A stretch of 64,000 bases of DNA from Oscillospiraceae bacterium. Its GTDB lineage: Bacteria > Bacillota > Clostridia > Oscillospirales > Oscillospiraceae. The notes beneath the pieces are model-generated. The model was not told the origin of the DNA. It did not search any database and saw only the letters and a program-made list of their open reading frames with translations. Of this stretch, positions 1 to 12,923 are shown one piece after another. Within the stretch, counting starts at the first letter, position 1; each line of letters starts with the position of its first letter. The translations under genes and the position numbers were made by a program. Where the stretch lies: positions 310,001 through 374,000 of the forward strand of contig CADCKQ010000002.1 of the NCBI GenBank assembly GCA_902802045.1. Direction: 5' to 3'.

Positions 1-355
1 TCCAGACTCTCTCCAGAAACTTTTCACGACCCAGATCATATCTGGAAAGCCCTTCATTGACTCTGAGGTATTCCTCTACTTTCACCTGGGTCGAGATCCC
101 GGCATGATCTGAACCCGGGAGCCAGAGAGCGGAATATCCCTGCATTCTCTTGTATCTTGTCAGGATGTCCTGAAGAGTGCAGTCGAGCGCATGCCCCATA
201 TGAAGCTGCCCTGTAACGTTGGGAGGGGGCATAACTATGGAGAAAGGCTTTTTGTCCTTGTCTATCTCTGCCTTGAAATAGTCGTTCTTCATCCAGAAAT
301 CGTAAATGGGCTTTTCCACCGATTTCGGATCATACACCTTCGGAAGTTCTTTCAT
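1..355 (-). CDS. valS: Valine--tRNA ligase, N-terminal part (runs off window)
   Basis: Charges tRNA-Val with valine in the cytoplasm. Only the first 118 residues are inside the window; the gene continues past base 1. The visible part has the class I N-terminus with PPPNVTG followed directly by the HMGH form of the HIGH ATP-binding motif, and the LPGSDHAGI segment, an order typical of ValRS. The ATG at 355 has a good Shine-Dalgarno (TAGGAGTG) and is the first start after the T-box terminator. The T-box leader with a GUC specifier candidate independently supports valine over isoleucine or leucine. Confidence 0.95.
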
Positions 356-370
356 GATCGCACACTCCTA

Positions 371-613
371 AAACAAAACACCCTGAGAGAAAAACTCTCA
401 GGGCGATAAAATACCGCGGTACCACCTGAATTCCGCTTTATTTGCGGCACTCTCGGCTCTGTAACGGGAGCTCCCGGCAAGACCTAATAAGAAAAGTCCT
501 TTCAGCCTTGCTGCTCCGGGCCGACCTTCAGCGCCGCCTCATGAAAGCTCGCACCGTCCGCTTTCTCTCTGGGAATCCGCTTTGCGCTTACTCCTGCCCA
601 TCTTCGCAATATG
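371..613 (-). ncRNA. T-box riboswitch leader of valS
   Basis: Minus-strand leader between the promoter and valS. The invariant T-box (AGGTGGTACCGCGG on the minus strand, complement of 414-427) is followed by an intrinsic terminator with a 9-bp stem (381-403) and a T-rich tail (371-380). Upstream are Stem I-like elements (CAGAGAG and GGTGCGAG). A GTC triplet complementary to 523-525, in a GAAGGTC context, is a plausible valine specifier. The known mechanism for the class is that uncharged tRNA pairs with specifier and T-box and prevents termination. The specifier assignment is my inference. Confidence 0.93.
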
Positions 614-619
614 AGTGGA

Positions 620-648
620 ATTATAGTTTAGTAAAGCATGTTTGTCAA
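620..648 (-). promoter_or_regulatory. Promoter of valS T-box transcript
   Basis: Consensus sigma-A promoter on the minus strand: TTGACA (complement of 643-648), a 17-bp spacer, TATAAT (complement of 620-625). Transcription should start near 613, just upstream of Stem I of the T-box. Confidence 0.9.
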
Positions 649-707
649 GAGTCTGATGCCATGCTCCCTGTCCTTCTGCAGACTGATTCTGCGGATTTAA
701 TTTATTA

Positions 708-736
708 TTGAATTTGAACGGCCAATCAATTATAAT
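708..736 (+). promoter_or_regulatory. Probable promoter of glnS
   Basis: TTGAAT (708-713), 17-bp spacer and a perfect TATAAT (731-736), about 30 bases before the glnS start. It faces away from the valS promoter, leaving roughly 60 bases between the two -35 boxes. Confidence 0.75.
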
Positions 737-766
737 TTTCATACTTTTTAGATCGAGGTTTCTCAA

Positions 767-2452
767 ATGGAAGAAAAAACAGGCAATTTTATCTGGCAGT
801 TTGTGGAAGAAGACCTGTCCGAGGGGCAGAGATGTTACGGTATGCAGGTGCACACCCGTTTTCCGCCTGAGCCCAACGGATATCTTCATATAGGTCACTG
901 CAAAGCTCTGACCATAGATTTCGGTACTGCCGAAAAATTTGGCGGGATATGCAACCTGAGAATGGACGATACGAATCCTGCCAAAGAAGATACAGAATAT
1001 GTCGAAGCCATCCAGGAGGATATCCACTGGCTGGGCTTTGATTGGGGTGACAGATTCTACTACGGCTCGGATTATTTTGAAAAAACCTATGAATACGCCA
1101 TAGAACTCATAAAAAAAGGACTTGCCTACGTATGTGAGCTCACTCCGGAGCAGTTTAAGGAATACAGAGGCGATATAGGAAAGCCTGCGATCTCACCATG
1201 GAGAGACAGGCCGGTCGAAGAGAATCTCGATCTGTTCGAGAGAATGAAGAACGGCGAATTCAAGGAAGGCCAATACACTCTGAGGGCAAAGATCGATCTC
1301 GCCTCCGGAAACTTCAATATGAGAGACCCCGTACTCTACCGCATAAGATATATCGAGCATCATCGCCAGGGTACGAAATGGTGCATATTCCCGATGTACG
1401 ACTTCGCGCACCCCATTCAGGACGCGCTTGAGGGCATTACACACTCGCTCTGTTCTTTGGAATATGAAGCGCACAGGCCCCTTTACAACTGGGTAGTCGA
1501 GAATGTCTCCATCCCGTATATCAAGCCGCGCCAGATTGAGTTTGCCAGGCTTGGCATAAACTATACTGTTATGTCAAAGAGAAAACTTCGCAAAATGGTC
1601 GAGGAGAACGTAGTTGACGGCTGGGACGACCCCAGGATGCCTACTCTCTGCGGGCTCAGAAGAAGAGGATACACTTCAGGTTCCATAAGAACTTTCTGTG
1701 AGAAGATCGGAGTTTCCAAGGTGGATTCGACAGTCGATATAGCACTTCTCGAGAGCTGCCTGAGAGACGATCTGAACCTGAAGGCAAAGAGGGTCATGGC
1801 CGTTCTCGAGCCGGTAAAGCTTACAATAACCAATTACCCCGATGGACAGAGCGAGCTTCTTGACATCGAAAACAACCCCGTGGATGAGAATGCGGGAACA
1901 AGAAAAGTCAGCTTCTCAAAGCACCTCTGGGTCGAAAAAGAGGACTTTATGGAAGTCCCTGCGAATAAATACAAACGCCTGTATCCGGGCAATGAAGTAA
2001 GACTCAAAGGCGCCTATCTGGTGACCTGCACAGGCTGTATTAAAGACGAAGACGGGAATGTCACTGAGATCCTCTGCGAGTATGATCCTCTATCCAGAGG
2101 CGGCAATCCTGCAGACGGAAGAAAGGTCAAAGGCGCCACCATTCACTGGACGGACGTGGAGACCGCTGTTGACGCCGAAGTCCGTATATATGACAGGCTC
2201 TTTACTGATCCGGATCCCGACGGACCGGACAAGGATTTTCTGGACTATATAAACAAAGACAGCCTTAAGATTTTGAGCTCCTGCAAAGTTGAGAAATGTC
2301 TCTCCGAGATCCCGATGCCCGAAAAAGGCAGGGACAGCGAGAGCTTCCAGTTCATGCGCCAGGGCTATTTCTGTCTCGACAACAAATTCTCCGCTCCCGG
2401 GCACCTCATCTTCAACCGCTCGGTAGCCCTAAAAGACAGTTTCAGGAAATAA
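767..2452 (+). CDS. glnS: Glutamine--tRNA ligase
   Basis: Class I synthetase that attaches glutamine to tRNA-Gln. The 561-residue length fits bacterial GlnRS. PPEPNGYLHIGH (33-44) carries the HIGH motif, and VMSKR (268-272) is the GlnRS form of KMSKS; this form and the C-terminal beta-barrel region separate it from GltX. ATG at 767 follows GAGG at 754-757. Having GlnRS means direct charging of tRNA-Gln rather than only the amidotransferase route; in Bacillota its presence is patchy, and an old transfer is possible but not shown here. A terminator follows at 2471. Confidence 0.95.
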   Translation: MEEKTGNFIWQFVEEDLSEGQRCYGMQVHTRFPPEPNGYLHIGHCKALTIDFGTAEKFGGICNLRMDDTNPAKEDTEYVEAIQEDIHWLGFDWGDRFYYGSDYFEKTYEYAIELIKKGLAYVCELTPEQFKEYRGDIGKPAISPWRDRPVEENLDLFERMKNGEFKEGQYTLRAKIDLASGNFNMRDPVLYRIRYIEHHRQGTKWCIFPMYDFAHPIQDALEGITHSLCSLEYEAHRPLYNWVVENVSIPYIKPRQIEFARLGINYTVMSKRKLRKMVEENVVDGWDDPRMPTLCGLRRRGYTSGSIRTFCEKIGVSKVDSTVDIALLESCLRDDLNLKAKRVMAVLEPVKLTITNYPDGQSELLDIENNPVDENAGTRKVSFSKHLWVEKEDFMEVPANKYKRLYPGNEVRLKGAYLVTCTGCIKDEDGNVTEILCEYDPLSRGGNPADGRKVKGATIHWTDVETAVDAEVRIYDRLFTDPDPDGPDKDFLDYINKDSLKILSSCKVEKCLSEIPMPEKGRDSESFQFMRQGYFCLDNKFSAPGHLIFNRSVALKDSFRK

Positions 2453-2470
2453 GAAGCAGTATTAATATAA

Positions 2471-2495
2471 GCCGCCCCTTACCGGGCGGCTTTTT
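2471..2495 (+). terminator. Intrinsic terminator of glnS
   Basis: GCCGCCC / GGGCGGC stem with a short loop followed by TTTTT, 18 bases after the glnS stop codon. Confidence 0.9.
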
Positions 2496-2562
2496 CATTA
2501 CAGATTCTTACTCATCTGTGATCTTAAAGGCATCTTGTATATTCACAGATCTGTGTCCTTTC

Positions 2563-2762
2563 AGGGTGGGGATGGTGGGAACAGGGTGGGGCTGTGAAAA
2601 GCATTGCCCCACCCTGTCAATCAAAGTCATACCAATGCTTTGAGGGCTCAGGGTGGGACAGGTGGGATAAATTTGCATAAAACTTTTTTAAAAAAAACAA
2701 AAATTATTACAATATATAACTGATTAAAAAAAGTTGTCAGAATCGTCCCACCATCCCCACCT
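2563..2762. repeat. G-rich inverted-repeat element in the glnS-DUF2804 intergenic gap
   Basis: This is the only gap over 300 bases without a gene (2497-2886). It carries GGTGGGG / GGTGGGA runs. A 16-base sequence at 2565-2580 recurs as an exact inverted copy at 2746-2761. A second perfect 12-bp inverted repeat (2581-2592 with 2606-2617) sits between them, plus a third G-rich copy on the same strand at 2650-2667. Bases 2564-2591 contain five runs of at least three G with loops of 1-5 bases, a G-quadruplex pattern. An AT-rich segment (about 2668-2740) lies inside. No coding sequence is convincing here. Confidence 0.7.
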
Positions 2763-2774
2763 TATTCCATTGAA

Positions 2775-2822
2775 AAGCAAAAATTTCAAAGTGCAATACA
2801 CGGGTATCTGCACTTTGAAATT
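2775..2822 (-). terminator. Terminator hairpin after the DUF2804 gene
   Basis: A perfect 14-bp inverted repeat (2782-2795 with 2809-2822) has a 13-base loop. On the minus strand it ends in TTTTTGCTTTT. The plus strand also has a T-run after it, but the only gene ending here is the DUF2804 gene. Confidence 0.75.
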
Positions 2823-2886
2823 CTTTTTATCCGGGACTCTTTACCCGCTTTATTGTTACTTTCACACAGTTAAGATCGCCGGTGAA

Positions 2887-3936
2887 CTACCACTTATTGT
2901 GTACATGCTCTGCAAAACAGAGTCTGTCCTTAATTTCTATTACCTTTCCGTCATCCAAAACCGCTTTGCCCGAGATAAGTCCGAACACCTGGTTCGGGAT
3001 CATGCAGATCACCTTGAAATCCACAGGATCGGTTCTGTCTATTATCGGCTTGAAGCTCATCTCAAAACGTTTGTCCGAGCTTGTAAAGGTCCAGGGGCTC
3101 ATGTAGTCGTATGACCCGTCTTTCTTTCTGGGGATATTGAAGTACACATCTTCAAGCTTATGGCTCTTTCCGTTGTAAAACAGCATATTTTCGCTTGCAG
3201 CGGATGTATTTCCGAATCCGTAGCCTATATTGAAGCCGAATGTGCTCCCCTCCTCGAGATACATGCTTCCGCTGCCCCAGTACCAGGTGTTGTCATAGGT
3301 CCAGACTCCTCTGCCCCAGTCAAGCGAACCGAGGCTGCCGTTATCGGCGTTGAAAACATATGTATTTCCGTCAAAGGAGCAGAACCCTTCTGCTTTCATG
3401 CAGTTTATCTTCTGGTTGTAATAGAAATGGGCTCTCTTGTCAAAAGGAGTCGCTATCACCATGCTCTCTTCCGGAAAATCGGAAAGAGTGACATCAAATC
3501 TGAGTTCTTTCCCGGACTTGCAGTAATTGCTGAAGGTCCCGAAAAGATGTCTGGTCTTCCCGTTGTTCATAAATGTCATGTCTGCATCTCCGACCTTGGC
3601 GCGGATGTCTCCCGACTCGCTTGTCCAAGGCAGATTGAGCTTTCCGAGAGGCAAAGCTCCGAGCGCTCCGCAATTGTACTGGAAGGGCTTGTCCCCGAAC
3701 CCGAGCAGCGAAACACTGAGGCTGCTGCAAAAACCCGCATCGGAAATCGTAAGACAGAGCCCGTTTTCCCTGTTACCGATATAGTAGTAGTCCCATTCCT
3801 TTATGCGCCATTTCGGAGCTTTGATGTCATTTCTGTCATAGATCCAGTTCAGCTTTTTGGAATAGCCCGGATGCGCGATATTGCCGTACTTATCCAGAAG
3901 CCTCTCTTTTTCGGTTATTTCTCTGTTAATACGCAT
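2887..3936 (-). CDS. DUF2804 family protein
   Basis: A 349-residue protein without signal peptide or membrane segment. The composition is beta-rich and aromatic, with many W, Y, F and G, and the C-terminus FAEHVHNKW is characteristic of DUF2804. The function of the family is unknown to me; a lipocalin-like beta-barrel related to hydroxyneurosporene-synthase-like (CrtC) folds is an inference. It starts at ATG 3936, 29 bases after the Nudix gene, so the two are probably co-transcribed with the TrkA-C gene upstream. A hairpin terminator follows at 2775-2822. Confidence 0.75.
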   Translation of the reverse strand: MRINREITEKERLLDKYGNIAHPGYSKKLNWIYDRNDIKAPKWRIKEWDYYYIGNRENGLCLTISDAGFCSSLSVSLLGFGDKPFQYNCGALGALPLGKLNLPWTSESGDIRAKVGDADMTFMNNGKTRHLFGTFSNYCKSGKELRFDVTLSDFPEESMVIATPFDKRAHFYYNQKINCMKAEGFCSFDGNTYVFNADNGSLGSLDWGRGVWTYDNTWYWGSGSMYLEEGSTFGFNIGYGFGNTSAASENMLFYNGKSHKLEDVYFNIPRKKDGSYDYMSPWTFTSSDKRFEMSFKPIIDRTDPVDFKVICMIPNQVFGLISGKAVLDDGKVIEIKDRLCFAEHVHNKW

Positions 3937-3965
3937 TTCTTATCCTCCGCCAATCATTGGGCTTT

Positions 3966-4484
3966 CTATCTATTAGTTTTTTCAAAAATATCAAAGATCT
4001 TTTCTATAAGTGCGGTATCGTAATCGACAAATTCACCTGTCTTTATCATGTCCAGGATCTCCGTTTTTCCGGCAAATCTCAATTCGTCGATCTCTTCACT
4101 TTGAAACCTTATTTCAGCAGGGTCTGTATCTGTACAGGCAGTATAGAAATCATCGAAAACATATGAAAATGAGGCCGTGAAAGCATACTCGGGTTCGATT
4201 TCCTCCAGGCCCAGTTCCTCTCTGGTCTCTCTAATTATCGCTTCTCTTGAGTTCTCTCCGTGCTTTGCAAAGCCCCCGGCAGATACATCCCACCTCCCGG
4301 GGTAAGCTTTCTTCGACAGGTTCCGTCTCTGGATAAGCATCTTTCCTGTCAGCGTGTCTTTTATGCAGATGTGCACTACGAGAAGATGCCTGTCTCCTTC
4401 CGGGCTGAGGCTGTTTCGCTCCGCCCGGTCGACAGTTTCCCCTGTCAGCATCATGTTGTCGTCATAGATATCAAGAAGTTCCAT
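3966..4484 (-). CDS. Nudix hydrolase (isopentenyl-diphosphate isomerase-like subgroup)
   Basis: The Nudix box is complete: G, five residues, E, seven residues, RETREELGL, with the catalytic glutamates in REXXEE. Such enzymes cleave nucleoside diphosphates linked to another moiety, using Mg2+. The N-terminal layout (short DIYDDN lead, then HLLVVHICIKD and LIQRR) resembles YfcD/Idi-like Nudix proteins; the substrate cannot be read from the sequence. I prefer ATG at 4484, which has GAGG six bases upstream, over an in-frame GTG at 4496. It lies between the TrkA-C membrane protein and the DUF2804 gene with short gaps. Confidence 0.85.
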   Translation of the reverse strand: MELLDIYDDNMMLTGETVDRAERNSLSPEGDRHLLVVHICIKDTLTGKMLIQRRNLSKKAYPGRWDVSAGGFAKHGENSREAIIRETREELGLEEIEPEYAFTASFSYVFDDFYTACTDTDPAEIRFQSEEIDELRFAGKTEILDMIKTGEFVDYDTALIEKIFDIFEKTNR

Positions 4485-4517
4485 AGTTGTCCTCACGGAG
4501 CCGCCGGTTTGTCCGTT

Positions 4518-5234
4518 TCAGCCCTCTGTGAAATGCTCCCTTGCGTGAAAGGTTCTGCAAATAGTCGCATAATCGCCGAAAACAGTCAGCTTATCTCCGA
4601 CATCAAACACCGTTTCCGCTCCGGCGGGCTCCGCCTTTTTGCCCGGTTTCTCCACAAGCATGACCAGGATACCCGTATCAGACTTAAGACCTGTCTCGGA
4701 CAGCTTAACTCCGCGGTATTCTTCAGGAATATAATTAAGAGTCAGCAGGGCGATGGATTCTGTACCGATATAGTCAAGAAGAAGAATGCTGTTGAAGGTT
4801 TTTTCCACCCCTATTATCCTGTCCGCAACATGCTGCAAAATTCCGTCGCCCCAGGCACGGACCCTGGGCACACGCATGAAAATAAAGATGATTGCAACTG
4901 CCACGAGCGGGATCAGTATCCCGAAATAGTAATTCTGGACCTGGTTAATCTTCAGGGACAGGAAGACGTTGATAAAGGCAGTAACTATCGTTATGTTGAA
5001 CACATATCCGAAGAGCATCGTGACACGTGCAAGCCTGCGGCGCTGTCTGTTGGAAATGATCATCTCGCTTTCCTTCGTCGTAAACCCGCAGCCTGTAAGA
5101 AGAGAGATCACCTGAAATCTGGCTCTCTCATCAGGAAGCCCTGTGAAACGGAACAATATGGTAAAGAGCTCTGTGATGACCCAATAGAGCAGTATTATTA
5201 CTGAGAACAGGGAAAAAGCCATGTATATATTCAT
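4518..5234 (-). CDS. Membrane protein with C-terminal TrkA-C (RCK_C) domain
   Basis: Predicted 238 residues. Three hydrophobic segments occupy the N-terminal half (about 5-27, 70-93, 103-122), with a basic loop QRRRLAR between the first two. The C-terminal part (about 150-230) has the TrkA-C pattern ending VGDKLTVFGD. TrkA-C domains bind small ligands such as cyclic dinucleotides or K+ regulators in transporters; the N-terminal part is too short for a full channel, so a regulatory or sensor role is inferred. ATG at 5234 is chosen because GAGGAGG lies six bases upstream. Confidence 0.75.
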   Translation of the reverse strand: MNIYMAFSLFSVIILLYWVITELFTILFRFTGLPDERARFQVISLLTGCGFTTKESEMIISNRQRRRLARVTMLFGYVFNITIVTAFINVFLSLKINQVQNYYFGILIPLVAVAIIFIFMRVPRVRAWGDGILQHVADRIIGVEKTFNSILLLDYIGTESIALLTLNYIPEEYRGVKLSETGLKSDTGILVMLVEKPGKKAEPAGAETVFDVGDKLTVFGDYATICRTFHAREHFTEG

Positions 5235-5296
5235 CACATACTCCTCCTCTCATTAAGTGATGCGTTCTGTATCGTCAGACGGTTTATACCTTCCGG

Positions 5297-5878
5297 CTAT
5301 CTGATAAAATTGGTCTTGGGATGTCTTTCCTGTTCGGGGAACCCTATTCCGGCATTTTCCCCGGCCTCGATGCATTTCAGAAGCCAGGCCATATTTCTGC
5401 CCAGGTTTTTCATGATATCGACGCCTTCTTCATCCTTCAGGACATCGTCAGGCCTGTTGCCGTGAACCATATTCCAGTAACAGGAAGACACTAAGGGCAT
5501 CCCGCATATGGTCGGATATTTGTTAAGAACTTCGATCGAGGCTGTAGTCCCGGCTCTTCTTGCAGATGCGAGGACTGCGCACGGTTTTCCTTTGAATTCA
5601 GTACTTCCCTCCCAGAACAGTCTGTCAAGAAAAGATATTATTTCCCCGGAGGGTGAGGCATAATATACAGGAGAGCCTATGACAAGACCGTCCGCCTCTT
5701 TCATTGCAGCAAGAGCTTCTTTAACGGATTCATCCAGCTCACCTTTTAAAACTCTGAGCCCGACATCCATGAAAACGGTATCTATTCCAGCAGCATCGAG
5801 CTCACTTGCAACGATATCAAGTGCAGTTCTTGTACAGCCTCTGCTTCTGCGGCTGCCGTTTAACAAAAGAACTTTCAT
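5297..5878 (-). CDS. Flavodoxin-like NAD(P)H-dependent FMN reductase
   Basis: 193 residues. It starts MKVLLLNGSRR, the phosphate-binding loop of the NADPH-dependent FMN reductase family, and has IGSPVYYASPSGEIISFLDRLFW, the flavin-ring-binding region, near residues 70-92. No ferredoxin-type cysteine cluster is visible, so it belongs with plain FMN reductases rather than the iron-sulfur flavoproteins. The likely role is reduction of quinones, metals or other small molecules with bound FMN. It has its own extended -10 promoter and an AGGAGG-like site (GGAGG, 6-7 bases before ATG). Confidence 0.85.
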   Translation of the reverse strand: MKVLLLNGSRRSRGCTRTALDIVASELDAAGIDTVFMDVGLRVLKGELDESVKEALAAMKEADGLVIGSPVYYASPSGEIISFLDRLFWEGSTEFKGKPCAVLASARRAGTTASIEVLNKYPTICGMPLVSSCYWNMVHGNRPDDVLKDEEGVDIMKNLGRNMAWLLKCIEAGENAGIGFPEQERHPKTNFIR

Positions 5879-5903
5879 ATAATAACCTCCGAATATTTTT
5901 TCT

Positions 5904-5912
5904 ATTATAACA
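5904..5912 (-). promoter_or_regulatory. Extended -10 promoter of the FMN reductase gene
   Basis: Minus strand TGTTATAAT: perfect -10 with the TGN extension. There is no good -35 at 17 bp, which the extended -10 can compensate for. Confidence 0.55.
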
Positions 5913-5952
5913 TAAGCTGCTTTAATTTAGGAAGAGTTCGAATTAGATTCGT

Positions 5953-6001
5953 AAAAACGAAAGAAACAACTTTAAAGATACAGTTTGTTTCTTTCGTTTT
6001 T
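5953..6001 (-). terminator. Terminator hairpin, second of a tandem pair after maf
   Basis: A perfect 15-bp inverted repeat, AAAAACGAAAGAAAC with its complement. On the minus strand the 3' arm ends in CGTTTTT, which fits an intrinsic terminator with a weak, AT-rich stem. It follows another long hairpin at 6016-6060. Confidence 0.65.
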
Positions 6002-6015
6002 TTTGACTGAAAGAC

Positions 6016-6060
6016 AAGCAAAACAACATGTGCTTAAAGTACGCACATGTTGTTTTGCTT
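6016..6060 (-). repeat. Perfect 18-bp hairpin downstream of maf
   Basis: Bases 6016-6033 and 6043-6060 are exact inverted copies around a 9-base loop. The hairpin starts 18 bases after the maf stop codon and has no T-run of its own on the minus strand, so it is not a standard terminator. It could protect the maf mRNA 3' end or act with the next hairpin. Confidence 0.65.
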
Positions 6061-6078
6061 ATCCATCTCTTTCCGCGC

Positions 6079-6657
6079 TCATTTCGAATGGAGAAGAGTG
6101 TATTCTCTGAGTTTTCTGAAAACAATACTTACAGGCAATCCGACGATCGTCCCGTAGTCCCCGTCAACCTTTTCAACCAGATAGGCTCCTGTTCCCTGGA
6201 TCCCGTAAGAGCCGGCTTTGTCCATCGGTTCTCCTGTGGAGATGTAATCGCGTATCAGATCGTCACTGTTGTCGAACATCGTCACTCTTGTCTCAGAGTA
6301 AAAGCTGTCACGGCTTCCGTCCGGAAATATAAGAGCGACACCGGTATATACGCTGTGTGTTCTGCCGGAGAGCATCTTCAGCATAGAAAAGGCTTCATCC
6401 TCCGTTTTGGGTTTTCCGAGTATCCTGCCGTCGATCTCAACTATCGTATCGGCTGCAAGAACAGCCTGTCCCGGATACTTCGGGGCGACGGATAGGGCCT
6501 TCTGAAGGCTCAGGTCCTTTACGATCTCGGAAGGAACCGTCTTGTCCGTATTCTCTTCAATATCCGGAATGCAGACCTCACAACTTATCCCGACCATGTC
6601 GAGAAGAGCTCTTCTTCTCGGGGAACCTGAGGCCAGGATCACATGCATATCTTTCAT
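6079..6657 (-). CDS. maf: Maf-type nucleoside triphosphate pyrophosphatase
   Basis: Hydrolyses non-canonical or surplus NTPs to NMP and pyrophosphate (dTTP/UTP and modified bases in characterised members); historically linked to septum formation. The 192 residues carry the family motifs in order: LASGSPRRRALL near the N-terminus, AADTIVEIDGRILGKP in the middle, SGRTHSVYTGV, and GSYGIQGTGAYLVEKVDGDYGTIVGLP near the C-terminus. It starts one base after the DUF554 stop, so the two genes form an operon. Confidence 0.93.
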   Translation of the reverse strand: MKDMHVILASGSPRRRALLDMVGISCEVCIPDIEENTDKTVPSEIVKDLSLQKALSVAPKYPGQAVLAADTIVEIDGRILGKPKTEDEAFSMLKMLSGRTHSVYTGVALIFPDGSRDSFYSETRVTMFDNSDDLIRDYISTGEPMDKAGSYGIQGTGAYLVEKVDGDYGTIVGLPVSIVFRKLREYTLLHSK

Positions 6658-6658
6658 C

Positions 6659-7369
6659 TCAAAACAGCCCCGCTATAAGTTTTGACAGAGGAAACCAGAT
6701 TATGGGAATAAAGATTGCAGGCAGCATATCCCCGACCTTTATCTTCTCTTGCCTTAAGCCGATCATATTTATGGCAAGTCCTATGAAAAGTACTCCTCCT
6801 ACTGCAGACATCTCGGTTATGACCTCCGGAGTGAGCACGGGAGATGCAACCCCTGCCAGAAGCACTATCGCGCCCTGGATCACCAGAACGGATACTGCCG
6901 AGGCCATTACGCCTATTCCGAAGACAGCAGAATACGCGATCGAGCTGATCAGGTCCATGATGCTCTTTGTTATAAGAATGCTGTAGTTGTGGTTGAGGCC
7001 CGCCTCAATGGAGCCTAGCACTGTCATGGTTCCAACGCAGAAAAGGATCGTAGTCGTCGTAAAACCTTCAGCGAATTTTCCTCTGCCGAATTTCGTTCCC
7101 GAGAGCTTATTCTGAACTTTCCCGGCGAGAGAATCGAGCCTGTCGTCTATTCTGAGAAGTGTTCCGATAACAGTTCCGAGCACGGCACAGACGATGACGA
7201 TCAGTATATTGGAAGTTGCGACGGCGCCCTGAACGCCTATAACGGCAGTGCATATCCCCAGGCAGACCATCACGGATTTCGTGTATTTCTCCCCTATCCT
7301 GTTACCGAAAAACGTTCCCGTCGCGCTGCCGATGACGACTGCAATGACGTTTATGAGTACAGCGAGCAT
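6659..7369 (-). CDS. DUF554 family membrane protein
   Basis: 236 residues, six to seven hydrophobic segments, starting MLAVLINVIAVVIGSATGTFFGNRIG and ending with PAIFIPIIW, as in DUF554 (YdfK-type) proteins. This is an integral inner-membrane protein whose function is unknown; transport is sometimes suggested but nothing here shows a substrate. It is followed immediately by maf. No clear promoter was identified between it and the tRNA-Gly terminator at 7412. Confidence 0.85.
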   Translation of the reverse strand: MLAVLINVIAVVIGSATGTFFGNRIGEKYTKSVMVCLGICTAVIGVQGAVATSNILIVIVCAVLGTVIGTLLRIDDRLDSLAGKVQNKLSGTKFGRGKFAEGFTTTTILFCVGTMTVLGSIEAGLNHNYSILITKSIMDLISSIAYSAVFGIGVMASAVSVLVIQGAIVLLAGVASPVLTPEVITEMSAVGGVLFIGLAINMIGLRQEKIKVGDMLPAIFIPIIWFPLSKLIAGLF

Positions 7370-7405
7370 ACTGACCTCTTTTCCATTAAATGCCTCTGCT
7401 CTTTT

Positions 7406-7435
7406 AAAAAAGAAGACCTTCTTCCGAAGATCTTC
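7406..7435 (-). terminator. Terminator of tRNA-Gly
   Basis: On the minus strand GAAGATCTTC and GAAGGTCTTC pair over 10 bp with one G-U, followed by TTTTTT, seven bases after the encoded CCA end. Confidence 0.8.
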
Positions 7436-7441
7436 ATTGAA

Positions 7442-7517
7442 TGGAGCGGCCTACGAGGCTCGAACTCGCTACCTCCACCTTGGCAAGGTGGCGCTCTACC
7501 GGATGAGCTAAGGCCGC
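7442..7517 (-). tRNA. tRNA-Gly (anticodon GCC)
   Basis: The 7-bp acceptor stem GCGGCCT / AGGCCGC, D-arm, anticodon stem CCACC / GGTGG around loop TTGCCAA (anticodon GCC), and the GTTCGAG T-loop are all present. The discriminator is T and CCA is encoded (7442-7444). It reads GGC and GGT codons. Confidence 0.96.
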
Positions 7518-7529
7518 AGAACGCTATTG

Positions 7530-7728: not shown

Positions 7729-7851
7729 CTTATTATCTCATACTTTCAGGCTCCATATTGATTAATTGTTTCCACCTCTTTCCGTGTTCACTTATAAACT
7801 ACGGATCCGGAAAGGAATTTTACATCTTTTCAGGATTTATATCTAAAATAA

Positions 7852-7882
7852 GCAGGGAGAGTCCGCAAAAGGATCTCCCTGC
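7852..7882 (-). terminator. Terminator of the first ECF operon
   Basis: GCAGGGAGA / TCTCCCTGC stem of 9 bp, followed on the minus strand by a T-rich tail (TTATTTTA). The stem core GCAGGGAGAT is the same as in the terminator of the second ECF operon at 10018-10054. Confidence 0.65.
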
Positions 7883-7927
7883 ATGCAGAAGTATCGCTGA
7901 TAAGTGGAACACTCTGTTATTGGCCGG

Positions 7928-8749
7928 TCATCCTCTTGCAAGATCGATCAGACCGATCGCAGGACCTCCGGAGTATTCCGGACGAGGAACGCTGCTTTCC
8001 CGGATCTCCATCTCGTACGCGATATGCTCCAGCGTCTCCATATCGGACTCACCCGATATCAGGATCAGATATCCTGTTGTTTTATCAAAGAGCAAAATAT
8101 AATTCGCGCGGTCATATGTCGGGTAGACCAGGTTGCTGTAATCGGATGTGGCTTCGAGGATCTGCCAGTCTCCCAGATACTCCTCTTTTATGATCTCTAC
8201 ATCGCCGTTTAATATGAGCTGGAATCCGTCTCTTATATAATCTATTGTCGTAATACTGTAAGGGATCTCATTTTCGGAGCCGCAGAACAGTCTTTTCGTC
8301 CAGCCCTGTTCATCGGTAATTCCTTCAGTTGCTTCCTGAGGGACCCAAAAGCACCTGAATTCAGGCGTAAATCCCTGCTCTTTCGGGCAGGAGAAACTGA
8401 AAACCATTCCCGCGTCGGGATAAGCAAGTATCTCACTGTTCCGCACCTCGCCGTCGACGACTTCCTCGTATCTGAAGCCCGAAACAAGCTCTTCGTCTTC
8501 AGCCGGTTTCCGAAGGCTCAATGTGTATTCCGCGATGGCAAATGCCGCAGTGCCCAGGGCAAGAACCAATGCTGCGGCAAGAAGCAGCGCTCTTGACAGC
8601 TTCCTTATTCTGCGCGGCCTGATGTTATTTGTTCCGAGACGATTCTGTACGCTGTCCAGGATCCTCAGCGTAATTTCCTCGTTAAATTCTCCTATGTCGA
8701 TATCTTCAGGATAACAATCCTGTACAAGATCAGTAATGCGCGTCTTCAC
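7928..8749 (-). CDS. Membrane-anchored partner of ECF sigma factor (putative anti-sigma)
   Basis: 273 residues with a cytoplasmic N-terminal region (1-48), a single membrane segment at about 51-72, and an extracytoplasmic C-terminal domain of about 200 residues that resembles DUF4367-type domains. This layout and its position, overlapping the sigma gene by 20 bases, suggest an anti-sigma factor that holds the sigma at the membrane; no known anti-sigma motif (such as a zinc HXXXCXXC) is visible. GTG at 8749 has AAGGGG eight bases upstream. Function is inferred from context. Confidence 0.65.
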   Translation of the reverse strand: MKTRITDLVQDCYPEDIDIGEFNEEITLRILDSVQNRLGTNNIRPRRIRKLSRALLLAAALVLALGTAAFAIAEYTLSLRKPAEDEELVSGFRYEEVVDGEVRNSEILAYPDAGMVFSFSCPKEQGFTPEFRCFWVPQEATEGITDEQGWTKRLFCGSENEIPYSITTIDYIRDGFQLILNGDVEIIKEEYLGDWQILEATSDYSNLVYPTYDRANYILLFDKTTGYLILISGESDMETLEHIAYEMEIRESSVPRPEYSGGPAIGLIDLARG

Positions 8750-9290
8750 AGCTGAATCCCCTTTCTTTCAGATAGTCTTTCAGCCTCCTGCGGCCGCGGG
8801 CAAGTCTGGCGCGGACAGTTGCATCTTTAAGGCCTAGCGCCTCAGATATTTCCTCCGTTTTCTGATAAAGGAAATAATAGCGCTGGAAGATCTCCCGATC
8901 CGGTTCGCCGAGCGAATCAACGGCAGCATGGGTGATTTCCCTGAGCTCCGACATCAGGATCCTTTGCTCCGGCTGATTCGGTATACTGATCCGGAGAACA
9001 TCATCTTCCAGAGGGTCTTCGGCGTGATACTTCCGCAGCGCCGATCTTGCTTTATTGCGAACGATCGCTGCAAGATAGGCTTTCAGCATATCAGTTTCGA
9101 TACTTTCCCTGTGCTCCCATATGCTTAAAAAGGAATCCGAAACGACTTCTTCAATATCCTCTTCACCAAGAGCATGAGAAAGGATATTGGAAGCGATCGC
9201 ATACGCGTAAGCGCTGTATCGGCGTATCAGTTCGGGCAATATTGACTCATCCCCCGCCCGGAGTCTGTGCAACAGCTTATTTTCGTTCAT
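8730..9290 (-). CDS. ECF-family RNA polymerase sigma factor (first module)
   Basis: 186 residues containing only sigma regions 2 and 4, the ECF layout. Region 2 spans about 20-90 (DIEEVVSDSFLSIWEH and the AYLAAIVRNKARSALRK DNA-melting part). Region 4 spans about 120-175, with a helix-turn-helix at TEEISEALGLKDATVRARLARGR. It directs polymerase to a small set of promoters, probably including the ECF-like site at 9927-9953 ahead of its own operon. Operon order is lipoprotein, sigma, membrane partner. Confidence 0.9.
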   Translation of the reverse strand: MNENKLLHRLRAGDESILPELIRRYSAYAYAIASNILSHALGEEDIEEVVSDSFLSIWEHRESIETDMLKAYLAAIVRNKARSALRKYHAEDPLEDDVLRISIPNQPEQRILMSELREITHAAVDSLGEPDREIFQRYYFLYQKTEEISEALGLKDATVRARLARGRRRLKDYLKERGFSCEDAHY

Positions 9291-9299
9291 GTCAGCAGT

Positions 9300-9893
9300 T
9301 TATTCCTCCGGCCAGATTACAGTATCGAAACGGATATCAACACTCTTATACAATTGTTCGATGTGGAGTTCTTCACCCAGACTGCTGCTGATCTCCCAGA
9401 GATGTGAAGGGGTCGTAGTGATGACCGTGACCCAGGCGATGTATTCTTTTCCATCTTCAACACTGCGCATCTCCTTTACTTTCGCTTCACAACCGAGTTC
9501 AGCGAATTTCTTCGCCAGGGCAATATGGTCGTCCGAAGTGTCCGAGCCTGTCAGCATAGCATTTGTGTGTACAGCAAAACTGTACGGTTCATCCTGCGGC
9601 AGTTCCTCTTTAAACATCGCCAATTCCCACTTTTTGGCGTACAGATCGCCCTCTGTAGCATATATGCTGTTTATGAAATCCTCATAACTTTCATACTGAT
9701 CGGTCGTGTTCTGAGTATCTTCCGATGCAGGCATTTCATTGTTCTCTATTTCCAAACGAACATACGGTGTTGCCCCTGGCGCGTGACTCGGCCACGGGGA
9801 CGCCTCAGTAACCGTTACAGATTCCGACCTGCTGCCGCAGGCAGTCAGAAATACCATGCACAGAATAACCAGAAGAACTGTTTTTTGTTTCAT
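9300..9893 (-). CDS. Lipoprotein encoded ahead of the ECF sigma gene
   Basis: 197 residues. A 17-18 residue signal peptide ends in the lipobox LTAC, so Cys19 should be lipidated and the protein anchored outside the membrane. After a Ser/Thr/Pro-rich linker the domain is unrecognised; it ends with a beta-rich stretch. It lies 9 bases upstream of the ECF sigma gene and downstream of an ECF-like promoter. A role as target or signal input of the sigma pathway is inferred from position only. Confidence 0.7.
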   Translation of the reverse strand: MKQKTVLLVILCMVFLTACGSRSESVTVTEASPWPSHAPGATPYVRLEIENNEMPASEDTQNTTDQYESYEDFINSIYATEGDLYAKKWELAMFKEELPQDEPYSFAVHTNAMLTGSDTSDDHIALAKKFAELGCEAKVKEMRSVEDGKEYIAWVTVITTTPSHLWEISSSLGEELHIEQLYKSVDIRFDTVIWPEE

Positions 9894-9926
9894 TATCTCA
9901 CTCCTTTCCGGGCTTGCACTAATACA

Positions 9927-9953
9927 GACGCATCTTCCACAGAAATTGTGACA
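9927..9953 (-). promoter_or_regulatory. ECF-type promoter candidate
   Basis: Minus strand TGTCAC, 17-bp spacer, CGTC followed by TGTATTAG. This resembles ECF promoters in Bacillota (TGWMAC-N16/17-CGTM) rather than a sigma-A promoter. It lies 34 bases before the lipoprotein start and suggests that the sigma factor autoregulates. Inference from motif only. Confidence 0.6.
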
Positions 9954-10017
9954 GCTTTTCTTAATTTTTTCCGGATACGATAAGCTGTAATTTATAATAT
10001 TATATCAGATTAAACAA

Positions 10018-10054
10018 AAAGCAGGGAAATTCTGTATATGAATCTCCCTGCTTT
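10018..10054 (-). terminator. Terminator of the second ECF operon
   Basis: On the minus strand AAAGCAGGGAGATT pairs with AATTTCCCTGCTTT (14 bp with one G-U), followed by TTGTTTAA. It shares the GCAGGGAGAT core with the hairpin at 7852-7882. Confidence 0.8.
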
Positions 10055-10068
10055 CGAGGATAATCGTA

Positions 10069-11130
10069 TTATTTTGCTTCCCAGAGAACCAGATCACCCA
10101 AGACGATCTTTTGGACATCGCCGATATTAATCGCGCTGCCCCAGCCGCAATGCAGATTCACTGTGCCGTAATCATACGGGCAGGTCAGTGCCCCGCCTGT
10201 AGAAAATTCCGAGCCGTCAGAGAATATGATCTTCGAGTCGATGCACACCTTGTCCTCCAACATGCTCCAGGGCTGATAAGCATTCCAGTCTGCATCCGGC
10301 TTATGGAAGGATTCCGCGCCTTCGTAGCTCACTTTCCAGACTGCGCTGAATGGGGTCAGCTCAAGACCGGCTATCTCAATATCTTTTTCCAGCTCCGCGT
10401 CATGGTAGACAGCATGCCCGAAATCGAAGTCTCTGCTCTGTTCTTCTGTCCGGACTAAAGAAACCGGTCCGAACGTGGAAGTTTCATTTTGCCCGACAGT
10501 CATATGGACCAGAAGAGGCAGACTGTCTGTTCCAAGGGAGGCTTTTGCCTGCTCCATGAAGTTCAGGTCAATATAGCACTCCAGCGTCATGGTCTGAGTT
10601 TCCTTGTCATAGGCGTACCTGAGTACTGCTTCACGAATCTCGTCCCCGCTCACGGAAAGGTCAGCGGGAAGTTCCGGCGCGGCAAAACCTCCGATTTCCG
10701 TGCCGTCTATGCTCCAGGAGAAGCTTGTTTCTTTCGGGAAAGCTGCTGCAGCTTCTTCTGCCACAGGAGAAATATTCACATATACCCGCTGGATATCCCC
10801 GTCGTTAACTGAAGAGAGCAGCACAAGCCCGCCTTCCTGATCATCAGGAATATCATACTCAGTATAGCTGTTTACATTGTTCTCTTCGATCTTCAGATCT
10901 GTTTTGAGCTCCTGCTGGCGCACGGTGTGTATACTCCATACAGCGTATGCAGTGATCCCTAGTGCAAGCAGCAGCGCTGCTACCAGAGCAAAGGTTATTA
11001 TTCGTTTCTTATTCATGTGTACGATCCTTTCCGGGGAGCCTGATGCATCCCCGGTCACAGTACGGTACGCTTCCGCAATGTAGCGTTCATCGATATTTCC
11101 GAACGCTTTTGACAACAGTTCCCGTTTCAT
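10069..11130 (-). CDS. Membrane-anchored partner of the second ECF sigma factor
   Basis: 353 residues from ATG 11130, which overlaps the sigma stop codon (ATGA); longer upstream readings lie inside the sigma gene and are unlikely. A short cytoplasmic N-terminus (MKRELLSKAFGNIDERYIAEAY, about 1-40) precedes a membrane segment (about 42-64: a basic run, then FALVAALLLALGITAYA). A large extracytoplasmic beta-rich domain follows, resembling DUF4179-type anti-sigma partners. The layout suggests an anti-sigma or sensor whose N-terminus contacts the sigma. The outer domain is larger than that of the first module and not obviously homologous. Confidence 0.65.
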   Translation of the reverse strand: MKRELLSKAFGNIDERYIAEAYRTVTGDASGSPERIVHMNKKRIITFALVAALLLALGITAYAVWSIHTVRQQELKTDLKIEENNVNSYTEYDIPDDQEGGLVLLSSVNDGDIQRVYVNISPVAEEAAAAFPKETSFSWSIDGTEIGGFAAPELPADLSVSGDEIREAVLRYAYDKETQTMTLECYIDLNFMEQAKASLGTDSLPLLVHMTVGQNETSTFGPVSLVRTEEQSRDFDFGHAVYHDAELEKDIEIAGLELTPFSAVWKVSYEGAESFHKPDADWNAYQPWSMLEDKVCIDSKIIFSDGSEFSTGGALTCPYDYGTVNLHCGWGSAINIGDVQKIVLGDLVLWEAK

Positions 11131-11684
11131 GCAAGAAAGCCCTCCTTCACTAAAGTGTTCCGCAATTTCTCGCGCAGACGGAAAAGACGGACGTAGATAC
11201 GGTTGGCGCTCCCGCCCGAAGCTTCGGCCAGGTCCGAAACTGAATCTGCGTACCAATACCGGCGCACAAACAGAAAACGGTCTTTTTTGTCCAGAGTAGA
11301 GAGAAATCGATTGATCGCGGCACTGAGTTCCTGAGCTTCATACTCTGTCTCCACGTTCACTCCGGAAGGAATGCATTCTTCCATCTCATCCAAAACCAGA
11401 TCATAGTTTCCGTTGCGTTTCTCAGCATGATTGGCATGATAGCGGTTTACGGCCAGATTGCGGGCGATCCTGCAGACATACGCTGCCAGAGGATCCGGAA
11501 CATGAGGCGGGATACTGTTCCAGGTATTCAGATAAGTATCGTTCACACACTCTTCAACATCCAGCCGGTCCTTCAGAATATTTGCTGCAGTTTTCCTGAC
11601 CGCAGGTCCGTACTTGGAGTCCAGTTCTTCGATTGCCTGTTCCGAGCGCTCAAAAAACAGGCTGATTATCTTGCTGTCTTCCAA
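11127..11684 (-). CDS. ECF-family RNA polymerase sigma factor (second module)
   Basis: 185 residues with sigma regions 2 (about 10-85: LDVEECVNDTYLNTWNSIPP, then AYVCRIARNLAVNRYHA) and 4 (about 120-180, with the HTH VSDLAEASGGSANRIYVRLFRLREKL). I choose the TTG at 11684 because the AAAGGA ribosome binding site sits about 10 bases before it; the in-frame GTG at 11693 almost touches that site. The next gene overlaps by four bases, so the two should be translationally coupled. Confidence 0.88.
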   Translation of the reverse strand: MEDSKIISLFFERSEQAIEELDSKYGPAVRKTAANILKDRLDVEECVNDTYLNTWNSIPPHVPDPLAAYVCRIARNLAVNRYHANHAEKRNGNYDLVLDEMEECIPSGVNVETEYEAQELSAAINRFLSTLDKKDRFLFVRRYWYADSVSDLAEASGGSANRIYVRLFRLREKLRNTLVKEGFLA

Positions 11685-11716
11685 TCGCGTCACTTCCTTT
11701 CCGTCTCACCCTGTAT

Positions 11717-11742
11717 AACAGGATACGGAAGCAAATCTTACA
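11717..11742 (-). promoter_or_regulatory. Possible ECF-type promoter of the second module
   Basis: Minus strand TGTAAG, 16-bp spacer, TGTTATAC. The -35 half is ECF-like, but the -10 half departs from CGTC, so this is a weak candidate. No good sigma-A promoter was seen in the same interval. Confidence 0.3.
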
Positions 11743-11876
11743 CATGATCATGTTTTTTATTTGTTTTCATAAACATATTTGCCCTTCAAAAAATCACCTG
11801 GAAAACCTTTTGCATTATACGGGGATATATTATAAACTGTATCTGTAAGATGCAAATTGCGGAAAAGGAAGTATTT

Positions 11877-12923
11877 ATGGACAGGATAAATCTGGCCTCG
11901 GATTACGAGGAAGGTGCGCACCCCGAGATAATAAAAAAACTGGCCGAGACCAATATGCTCCAGTCAACAGGCTACGGAACAGATGAGTTCTGTGAAAGCG
12001 CGAGAAATAAAATAAGAAAGGCCTGTGAGTGTCCCGAAGCAGCGGTACATTTCCTCGTCGGTGGGACACAGGCAAACGCAACGGTCATTGACGCGCTGCT
12101 CTCTTCATATCAGGGAGTTGTTTCAGCCGAGAGCGGGCATATAAACGTACATGAAGCGGGTGCTATAGAGCTCGGCGGCCACAAGGTCATGGCAGTTCCC
12201 CAGCACAATGGGAAGATCAGAGCATCAGATGTACGGAAGGTCTGCGTAAGCTACGCAAATGACCCGAGCCGTGAGCACACTGTAATGCCGGGAATGGTCT
12301 ATATTTCACAGCCCACGGAATTCGGAACCCTGTATTCGCTTAAGGAACTGACCGAGCTGAGTACAGTCTGCAGGGAATTCGGGATCCCGCTCTATGCAGA
12401 CGGAGCAAGACTTGCCTATGCTCTGGCAAGCAAAGATAACGACGTGACTCTTCAGGATCTTGCACGCCTCTGCGACGTTTTCTACATCGGAGGCACCAAG
12501 TGCGGAGCTCTTTTCGGAGAAGCGGTGGTCATTCCGGATCCGGAGCTCATACCTCATTTCTTCAGCATCATCAAACAGCATGGGGCGCTTCTTGCGAAGG
12601 GCCGCATTTTGGGGATACAGTTTGACGTTCTCTTTACGAAGGATCTGTATCTCAATATAGGAAAAACCGCCATAGAATCGGCGGAGCTCCTCAAAAAGAC
12701 CTTCCGCGAGAAAGGATACAAGCTTGCCTTCGAGAACCCGACGAACCAGACCTTTGTTACTGTTGAAAACTCCGTATTGGAAGAGATCTCAAAATATGCG
12801 GGTACCGATCTCTGGGAAAGGCCTGACCCTGAACACAGCACTGTGCGTTTCGCAACGAGCTGGGCAACTGATATGAATAAGATCACAGAGCTCGCCGAAA
12901 AACTGCCTGTAATCAGAAACTGA
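11877..12923 (+). CDS. Threonine aldolase / beta-eliminating lyase family PLP enzyme
   Basis: 348 residues. PLP fold type I with GGTQANAT (about 62-69) for phosphate binding, YADGARL with Asp175, and FYIGGTKCG with Lys208 as the likely Schiff-base lysine. Low-specificity threonine aldolases split L-threonine into glycine and acetaldehyde; related members act on other beta-hydroxy amino acids. The ATG at 11877 has AAAAGGAAG eight bases upstream and is preferred over ATG 11850. It stands alone on the plus strand and ends at a shared terminator. Confidence 0.88.
   Translation: MDRINLASDYEEGAHPEIIKKLAETNMLQSTGYGTDEFCESARNKIRKACECPEAAVHFLVGGTQANATVIDALLSSYQGVVSAESGHINVHEAGAIELGGHKVMAVPQHNGKIRASDVRKVCVSYANDPSREHTVMPGMVYISQPTEFGTLYSLKELTELSTVCREFGIPLYADGARLAYALASKDNDVTLQDLARLCDVFYIGGTKCGALFGEAVVIPDPELIPHFFSIIKQHGALLAKGRILGIQFDVLFTKDLYLNIGKTAIESAELLKKTFREKGYKLAFENPTNQTFVTVENSVLEEISKYAGTDLWERPDPEHSTVRFATSWATDMNKITELAEKLPVIRN

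Follow-up and report, generated by a model that had tools for sequence, protein, structure and literature searches.

Two adjacent ECF sigma factor modules of an Oscillospiraceae bacterium and the probable exchange of outer sensor domains at the membrane helix of their partners

The window analysed here is a stretch of 64,000 nucleotides from an Oscillospiraceae bacterium (assembly GCA_902802045.1, contig CADCKQ010000002.1, positions 310,001 to 374,000). The draft genome measures 2.03 Mb, and the window lies on its contig C2. Between its positions 7,852 and 11,742 two minus-strand operons adjoin, each with a gene for an extracytoplasmic function (ECF) sigma factor and a gene for a one-helix membrane protein, the putative anti-sigma factor. 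Module 2 comes first in transcription order (sigma2-partner2) and is followed by module 1 (lipoprotein-sigma1-partner1). The two modules are probably independent, autoregulated ECF sigma/membrane anti-sigma switches, in which the outer sensor domains would be exchanged by recombination at the stretch coding the membrane helix; in the same reading, at the same probable level, the pair is what remains of a longer array of modules. Among relatives of module 2 the constant unit would consist of promoter, sigma, cytoplasmic part and helix, and the outer domain would be replaced just after the AYA which ends the helix of partner2.

For the comparison we used 80 stretches, chosen by likeness to sigma1 or sigma2 among the matches listed and from the genome of the window itself. 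The named relatives are mostly ruminant or other gut metagenome-assembled genomes (MAGs) labelled Oscillospiraceae, Ruminococcaceae or Clostridia. The 80 stretches gave 272 sigma open reading frames (ORFs), of which 227 were distinct, 219 had a partner and 215 were analysed (partner helix score >1.6, outer part >60 aa). For the clustering of outer parts we used phmmer with a threshold of E 1e-5. The two classes held 69 sigma2-type and 68 sigma1-type modules, and 64 of the 69 sigma2-type modules were used for the profile of the junction.

Thirteen of the 215 modules, the window's own included, have a sigma at least 73% identical to sigma2, and their cytoplasmic part and helix are 60-100% identical to those of partner2. 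Their outer domains belong to eight clusters (C1, C2, C3, C4, C7, C8, C9 and C28), and an outer domain like that of partner2 (at least 60%) is present in only three of them. Among the modules listed, eight sigmas with 53-70% identity to sigma2 are combined with partner2-like sensors (58-72%), and sigma1-type operons too (loci L171, L173, L174, L178 and L181) have partners that over their whole length are 36-44% identical to partner2. The loci L139, L140 and L144 carry the window type of partner2 sensor (69-72%) on sigmas only 53-59% identical to sigma2, whereas module 4 of locus L137, with a sigma 82-90% identical to those three, carries a sensor only 32-35% identical to theirs. Elsewhere, modules whose sensors share 93-94% identity have sigmas sharing 59-67%. 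These combinations argue against the view that the outer domains are not exchanged and just evolve so fast that orthologous sensors look unrelated, and so do the sharp single point at which identity falls and the donor-like copy in a neighbouring module, both described below. We therefore regard fast evolution as a very improbable explanation, even though the clusters were cut at E 1e-5, pairs within one cluster go down to 23% outer identity, and, of the 13 close modules, two carry a C1 sensor with just 26-29% identity to partner2.

The position of the boundary was determined by aligning on the AYA those pairs with sigmas at least 70% identical and outer domains in different clusters (178 pairs from 55 modules, not independent of each other). 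Identity was 0.45-0.83 per bin of five residues up to +4 from AYA and then 0.03-0.11, and no pair had more than 0.23 identity over +5 to +44. Seventeen reverse pairs, in which outer identity exceeded sigma identity by 25 points or more, behaved inversely, with identity at 0.09-0.34 in front of the helix and at 0.49-0.84 beyond AYA.

At DNA level the three loci L145, L146 and L147, which occupy the same place, are 92-95% identical over 823-853 nt from the promoter through the helix. There follows about 1.2 kb of unmatched sequence, which is the sensor, and further downstream they are again 86-91% identical over about 4.1 kb, including the lipoprotein-sigma1-partner1 operon. Over 945 nt the sensor of L146 has 86% DNA identity to that of another module, which lies just upstream in L147. 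This donor-like module has an unrelated N-terminal part. Where the two L146 alignments meet, in the DNA for the last part of the helix, they share 50 nt, as a crossover at this place would leave.

On the tree of the 69 sigma2-type modules the cluster label of the outer domain changed 32 times, with a minimum of 10 and with 39-46 changes in 200 shuffles. On the tree of the 68 sigma1-type modules it changed 9 times (minimum 6, shuffles 18-22). It means that exchange is common in the sigma2 class and rare in the sigma1 class. The window's own genome also takes part in the exchange, as judged from its module L080 (genome G000, contig C1 at about 52 kb, outer cluster C7). This is another type of ECF module with a short sensor. 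In other species, sigma2-type modules whose sigmas are 28-33% identical to that of L080 carry sensors with 68-75% identity to this one.

The array itself is longer in a close relative. Locus L137, from the goat omasum MAG RGIG2615, has 97% DNA identity to the window over 7.5 kb and carries four modules between a beta-eliminating-lyase gene and a tRNA pair, at the same place as the two of the window. The window matches L137 at 1-7518 and 11053-12558, so that it lacks about 3.5 kb carrying modules 3 and 4, and between these matches the window has 80 nt to which nothing in L137 corresponds. A residue of module 3 is still present in the window, namely its promoter and ribosome-binding site, now facing the tRNA-Leu region and followed by no reading frame longer than nine codons. 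This leftover promoter suggests that modules 3 and 4 were lost in the lineage of the window. As a separate observation, some genomes of the same genus (G036, G034, G021 and G006) have 15-23 matches to sigma1 in 2.4-2.8 Mb, compared with 6 in the genome of the window, among the matches listed.

The end of the helix has a constant form. In 181 of the 215 partners it carries an AxA with an aromatic middle residue, of the form small-aromatic-Ala, which ends the constant half (shuffled mean 47, largest 64), and a net charge of +2 or more precedes the helix in 213. Charged flank and AxA together have the make-up of a signal-peptidase site. AFA in partner1 and AYA in partner2 stand at the end of the helix, the place of a putative signal-peptidase site, and the source genome has two matches to signal peptidase I and one to a site-2 protease. 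We infer that proteolysis is regulated and that signal peptidase makes the first cut. The cytoplasmic part of the partner would keep the sigma bound. On perceiving a signal, the outer domain would expose the AxA to signal peptidase, and a site-2 protease and then a cytoplasmic protease would act and free the sigma. The freed sigma would transcribe its own operon, in module 1 together with the lipoprotein gene. Because the release machinery sits in the constant half, any sensor able to guard the AxA site could plug in, and homologous recombination between the helix-coding stretches of neighbouring paralogs would supply new sensors.

Release might also take place without signal peptidase, through another site-1 protease or a partner such as the lipoprotein, and AYA would then merely mark the helix end. 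RseB and MucB, the regulators of sigma E/AlgU, protect anti-sigmas from other site-1 proteases, and the outer model of partner1 resembles them at a borderline score. The lipoprotein is co-encoded in module 1, and 34 of the 215 partners have no aromatic AxA, 30 of these having another AxA. We consider this route rather unlikely in view of the signal-peptide-like make-up (charge in 213 of 215, aromatic AxA far above shuffled) and of two Firmicutes precedents. In the available parts of these two sources, signal peptidase cuts RsiV at a site inside DUF4179 upon lysozyme binding (PMC6066255) and cuts RsiP at VQS (PMC8844934), and a site-2 protease acts next in both.

Several points weigh against the reading of exchangeable sensors on a signal-peptidase-released switch. 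The 34 partners lacking the aromatic AxA belong here as well, and the conservation of the helix could be plain ancestry. The ClpXP-type motif xAA, which according to the accessible part of PMC12203970 is a degron inside the helix of RsgI, was counted 211 times against a shuffled mean of 170; this is weakly above, and a ClpXP degron within the helix is not claimed here. Neither partner1 nor partner2 gave a DUF4179 match in the Pfam scans. Sigma binding, cleavage and transcription of the own operon are predictions from the sequence. Exchange is not universal, since 67 further pairs with sigmas at least 70% identical stayed in the same outer cluster (outer identity 23-97%), and in the sigma1 class it is, by the label changes, rare. 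The module set was picked by likeness to sigma1 and sigma2 and is a sample rather than a census, and with a cluster cut at E 1e-5 some sensors called unrelated may be distantly related after all. As the named loci compared near the window come from MAGs, single assemblies could be chimeric, a doubt which is weakened by the repeated in-frame swaps with matching flanks. The direction of change in the array, gain or loss of the extra modules, is uncertain.

Both window sigmas could be assigned with profiles. TIGR02937 gave 81.3 bits for sigma1 and 72.5 bits for sigma2 (cut-off 42.9), PF04542 was above cut-off in both, and PF08281 was above cut-off in sigma1 and below it in sigma2 (18.9 against 25.7 bits). 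Both are short proteins with sigma-70 regions 2 and 4 only, as in ECF sigma factors, and beside each of them lies an overlapping gene for a one-helix membrane protein, the putative anti-sigma. An earlier note on this DNA, made from the letters alone, had described exactly this arrangement, and it holds for both modules, with overlaps of 20 nt (partner1 with sigma1) and 4 nt (ATGA, partner2 with sigma2). In the collection the partner gene overlaps the sigma gene in 69 of 69 sigma2-type and 62 of 68 sigma1-type modules, counts which are favoured by our rule for placing the partner start, which begins 45 nt before the end of the sigma gene and takes the first start codon there. The whole source genome has seven Sigma70_r2 matches.

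The earlier note had also stated that the two sigmas are not close copies of each other and that the outer domains of the partners differ. We agree on both: the sigmas are 28-29% identical, and no significant similarity was found between partner1 and partner2 (best E 0.91). Their cytoplasmic parts are likewise unrelated, with 22% identity over 41 aligned residues. Pfam scans of the two partners gave nothing at E 0.1. An alignment of partner1 gave a DUF4367 match in 2 of 11 members (best E 0.0016), an alignment of partner2 gave only chance-level Pfam matches, and the single NCBIfam match of partner1 was PRK13920, "putative anti-sigmaE protein", at E 0.083 with 12.5 bits against a cut-off of 225. 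Among solved structures, the partners had no sequence relatives of note. The zinc-binding anti-sigma (ZAS, zf-HC2) domain is marked by an HxxxCxxC motif; the partners had no Pfam match to zf-HC2/ZAS and no HxxxCxxC in their cytoplasmic parts. Pfam and NCBIfam scans of the window proteins showed no RsgI family, and the sigmas score as ECF.

Each operon is preceded by a conserved, class-specific promoter-like sequence, at which its own sigma may act. The earlier note had given TGTCAC-17-CGTC for module 1, and it is found exactly there (Table 1), followed by a TATA..AGTGA-like stretch. The second promoter, that of module 2, had escaped it; this one reads TGTAAGAT, 12 nt, CCTGTTATACAGGGTGA, is conserved, and has near variants in relatives of sigma2. 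Eleven relatives have the same operon as module 1, and TGTCACA is kept in ten of them, L141 differing at the first base. The whole class-1 pattern, with CGTC or TGTC allowed, matched in nine of the 11 loci and was one base off in each of the other two. The second element in those nine was CGTC in two (L137 and L142) and TGTC in seven, and more distant relatives of module 1 have TGAAAC...CGTT. In both promoter classes a TATA-like stretch ending in GTGA stands just after the -10 element, which exceeds what an ECF promoter appears to need.

The promoter classes were counted in the upstream regions of 69 of 69 sigma2-type and 67 of 68 sigma1-type modules, one being dropped for having <100 nt upstream. 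The strict class-2 word TGTAAGAT occurs in 17 of 69 sigma2-type regions (shuffled mean 0.16) and in 0 of 67 sigma1-type regions. A relaxed form occurs in 47 of 69 (shuffled 4.0) and in 6 of 67, the latter inside the shuffled range (mean 2.9, largest 8). The class-1 pattern was present in 14 of 67 sigma1-type regions (shuffled 0.46) and 0 of 69 sigma2-type regions; the first count is low partly because many sigma1-type operons begin with the lipoprotein gene, which leaves the promoter outside the 150 nt scanned. A genome search with the promoter motifs, proposed earlier as a way to define regulons, brought out no wider regulon. The exact module 2 pattern matches once in the genome, at module 2 itself, and the exact module 1 pattern matches five times, as does its reversed control. 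The four module 1 matches outside module 1 are all inside open reading frames, of which the list was made mechanically and, with a limit of 100 aa, shows none at the fourth site. Only exact patterns were searched, and as the relatives of module 1 favour TGTC over CGTC, a looser regulon is possible.

These results bear on the idea in the earlier note of a two-input envelope-stress circuit with possible cross-talk. Two separate inputs are supported by the anatomy, with different sigmas, unrelated cytoplasmic parts and outer domains, and different promoters. Cross-talk found no support at promoter level, as neither the class-1 pattern nor the strict class-2 word crosses to the other type. The modules are adjacent on the same strand, their sigmas share the identity given above, and sigma1-type and sigma2-type modules recur close together in L137, L139, L140 and L143-L147. 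However, sigma1-type modules also occur with no sigma2-type match in the flanks examined (for example in L141, L142 and L148-L156), and the distinct promoter classes, the unrelated cytoplasmic parts and an accidental terminator core speak against a joint circuit, which we find improbable. Cross-talk by way of similar partners was rejected, no similarity between them having been found. The role in "envelope stress" is a guess.

The earlier note had further reported the same core in both operon terminators. The core, GCAGGGAGAT, is indeed one hairpin arm after both operons, and the meaning attached to it did not stand: it looks accidental, since it diverges in relatives, the outcome named beforehand as marking it so. 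It occurs 12 times in the genome (reversed control 0), and a matching hairpin arm is present only at the two operon copies, with one mismatch; the other ten have 3-5 mismatches. In the 150 nt after partner1 it was found in 1 of 17 loci, the near-identical L137, and in the 140 nt after partner2 exactly in 1 of 6 loci, with a near-match in one more. Near variants exist after partner2 in L144 and, as a GCAGGGAGC hairpin, after partner1 in L147, and they are consistent with generic hairpins. After partner1 the T-run of the hairpin is weak, and the terminator scan does not list this hairpin. A regulatory or recombination signal was considered for the shared core and rejected, with 12 copies of which two are in hairpins, and with absence after the partners in most of the relatives examined.

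Structure models were made for the partners, with a mean predicted local distance difference test score (pLDDT) of 80.4 for partner1 and 76.0 for partner2. Residues 1-62 of partner2 are under 50, and so we did not interpret the cytoplasmic parts from the models. For the outer model of partner2, 3FBQ, which is BAS1627, a DUF4179 anti-sigma of B. anthracis, was the first match of 1000 chains (Z 6.0, root-mean-square deviation (rmsd) 5.6, 206 residues), with unrelated rows tying at Z 5.8 and 5.6; among the best 50 of the 1000 it was the sole match aligned over >100 residues. It was not among the best 50 structure matches of the outer model of partner1. That model aligns with the C-terminal domain of RseB/MucB at a borderline Z of 7.7-8.7 (84-89 residues, rmsd 4.2-5.1, 13-16% identity), and PsbP-type folds tie with it at Z up to 8.5; arrangements that are common among proteins reach such a score too. 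RseB/MucB is a separate periplasmic protein, whereas in partner1 the domain would be fused to a putative anti-sigma.

Nine partners from other clusters or loci were compared with DUF4179, and two were above the cut-off (E 3e-11 and 2.3e-8) and two below (E 4.2e-6 and 0.012). The module m211, with a sigma2 ortholog (77%), scored 27.5 bits, below the cut-off of 30.1, and m197, a 69% relative of sigma2, was above it with 34.8 bits. The window modules resemble the DUF4179 (ECF30) systems in that some sister modules match this family and the partner2 model has 3FBQ as first match, though at a middling Z, and they differ from them in that partner1 and partner2 have no DUF4179 match. With SigV/RsiV and the DUF4179 anti-sigmas, as far as the consulted portions of the sources describe them, they share a Firmicutes ECF sigma, a membrane anti-sigma and a signal-peptidase site at the helix end, the last two being putative here. 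The available part of PMC6066255 tells of unrelated outer parts in DUF4179 anti-sigmas such as RsiV and BAS1627; it does not mention close relatives that differ by a sensor exchanged at one locus.

SigP/RsiP of Bacillus thuringiensis also has an anti-sigma with a signal-peptidase cut near the membrane, putative in our case. From the portion of PMC8844934 at hand, it differs by its VQS site, by having no DUF4179, and by PbpP being the sensor rather than the outer domain of the anti-sigma. For Clostridium thermocellum, the accessible text of PMC12203970 reports RsgI paralogs with a like N-terminal part and helix and divergent C-terminal sensors, similar to the constant N-terminal part, helix and divergent sensors seen here. 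In the same text SigI is not an ECF sigma, RsgI has an autocleaving periplasmic domain, unlike the window modules, and the variety is one of paralogs within one species, whereas here it would be replacement among orthologs.

The features are collected in Table 1. Taken alone, the two window modules are ordinary. The lipoprotein gene of module 1, already mentioned in the earlier note, lies first in the operon, and relatives of it stand upstream of sigma1-type genes in 26 of the 80 loci; it was matched in 7 of 60 genomes (the own genome included, one match weak). Its product may act as a co-sensor or may be what the operon mainly serves to make. Sigma1 relatives at least 80% identical occur in 11 of the 80 loci. 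Partner2 is taken as 353 aa from the ATG at 11130, against the 395-aa ORF with an upstream TTG start in the ORF list.

Table 1. Positions of the module features in the window.
Feature	Position	Strand	Basis
Lipoprotein gene, 197 aa, lipobox LTAC, first gene of module 1	9300..9893	-	sequence
sigma1, ECF sigma factor, 186 aa	8730..9290	-	Pfam/NCBIfam profile matches
partner1, one-helix membrane protein, 273 aa, GTG start, putative anti-sigma	7928..8749	-	helix and overlap with sigma1
Codons A69-F70-A71, end of partner1 membrane helix, signal-peptidase-like AxA	8537..8545	-	read from sequence; pattern conserved
Module 1 ECF-type promoter TGTCAC-17-CGTC	9927..9953	-	sequence; relatives
Hairpin with GCAGGGAGAT after partner1	7852..7882	-	sequence; not in terminator scan
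sigma2, ECF sigma factor, 188 aa	11127..11693	-	profile matches
partner2, one-helix membrane protein, 353 aa, putative anti-sigma	10069..11130	-	helix and ATGA overlap with sigma2
Codons A61-Y62-A63, end of partner2 membrane helix; exchange boundary of relatives at most about 5 residues after	10942..10950	-	sequence; relatives
Module 2 ECF-type promoter TGTAAGAT...CTGTTATACAGGGTGA	11706..11742	-	sequence; relatives
Terminator hairpin after partner2	10017..10055	-	terminator scan
Orphan ECF promoter with ribosome-binding site, belonging to module 3 (absent here, present in L137)	7773..7824	-	comparison with L137

Divergent sensors on a like helix are already known, among RsgI paralogs and between RsiV and BAS1627, from what the available parts of PMC12203970 and PMC6066255 report. 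In the literature searched, with most subscription journals outside its scope, no title among those listed dealt with sensor exchange between anti-sigmas. What seems to be new is that orthologous ECF modules in close relatives have had their sensors replaced, that the boundary of the replacement is sharp and lies at the putative release site, and that a neighbouring module has a donor-like copy. Whether this extends to the ECF modules of gut Oscillospiraceae as a whole we judge evenly balanced. They may form a sensor-diversifying system, in which a constant cassette of promoter, sigma, sigma-binding part, helix and AxA is kept. Recombination at the stretch coding the helix would bring in outer sensors from neighbouring as well as foreign modules, giving new inputs to old regulons, and any domain that masks the AxA would serve.

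Should the constant helix and the AxA suffice for release, sensor exchange could be tested directly, one reporter could read out the inputs of many gut ECF modules, and chimeras could be cut at the boundary described here. Annotating the function of such a sigma from its ortholog is also unsafe, since the two may respond to different signals. The pattern suggests a plug-in route to the evolution of new senses, and in this way a pair of ordinary-looking stress switches becomes a natural experiment on how bacteria acquire senses.

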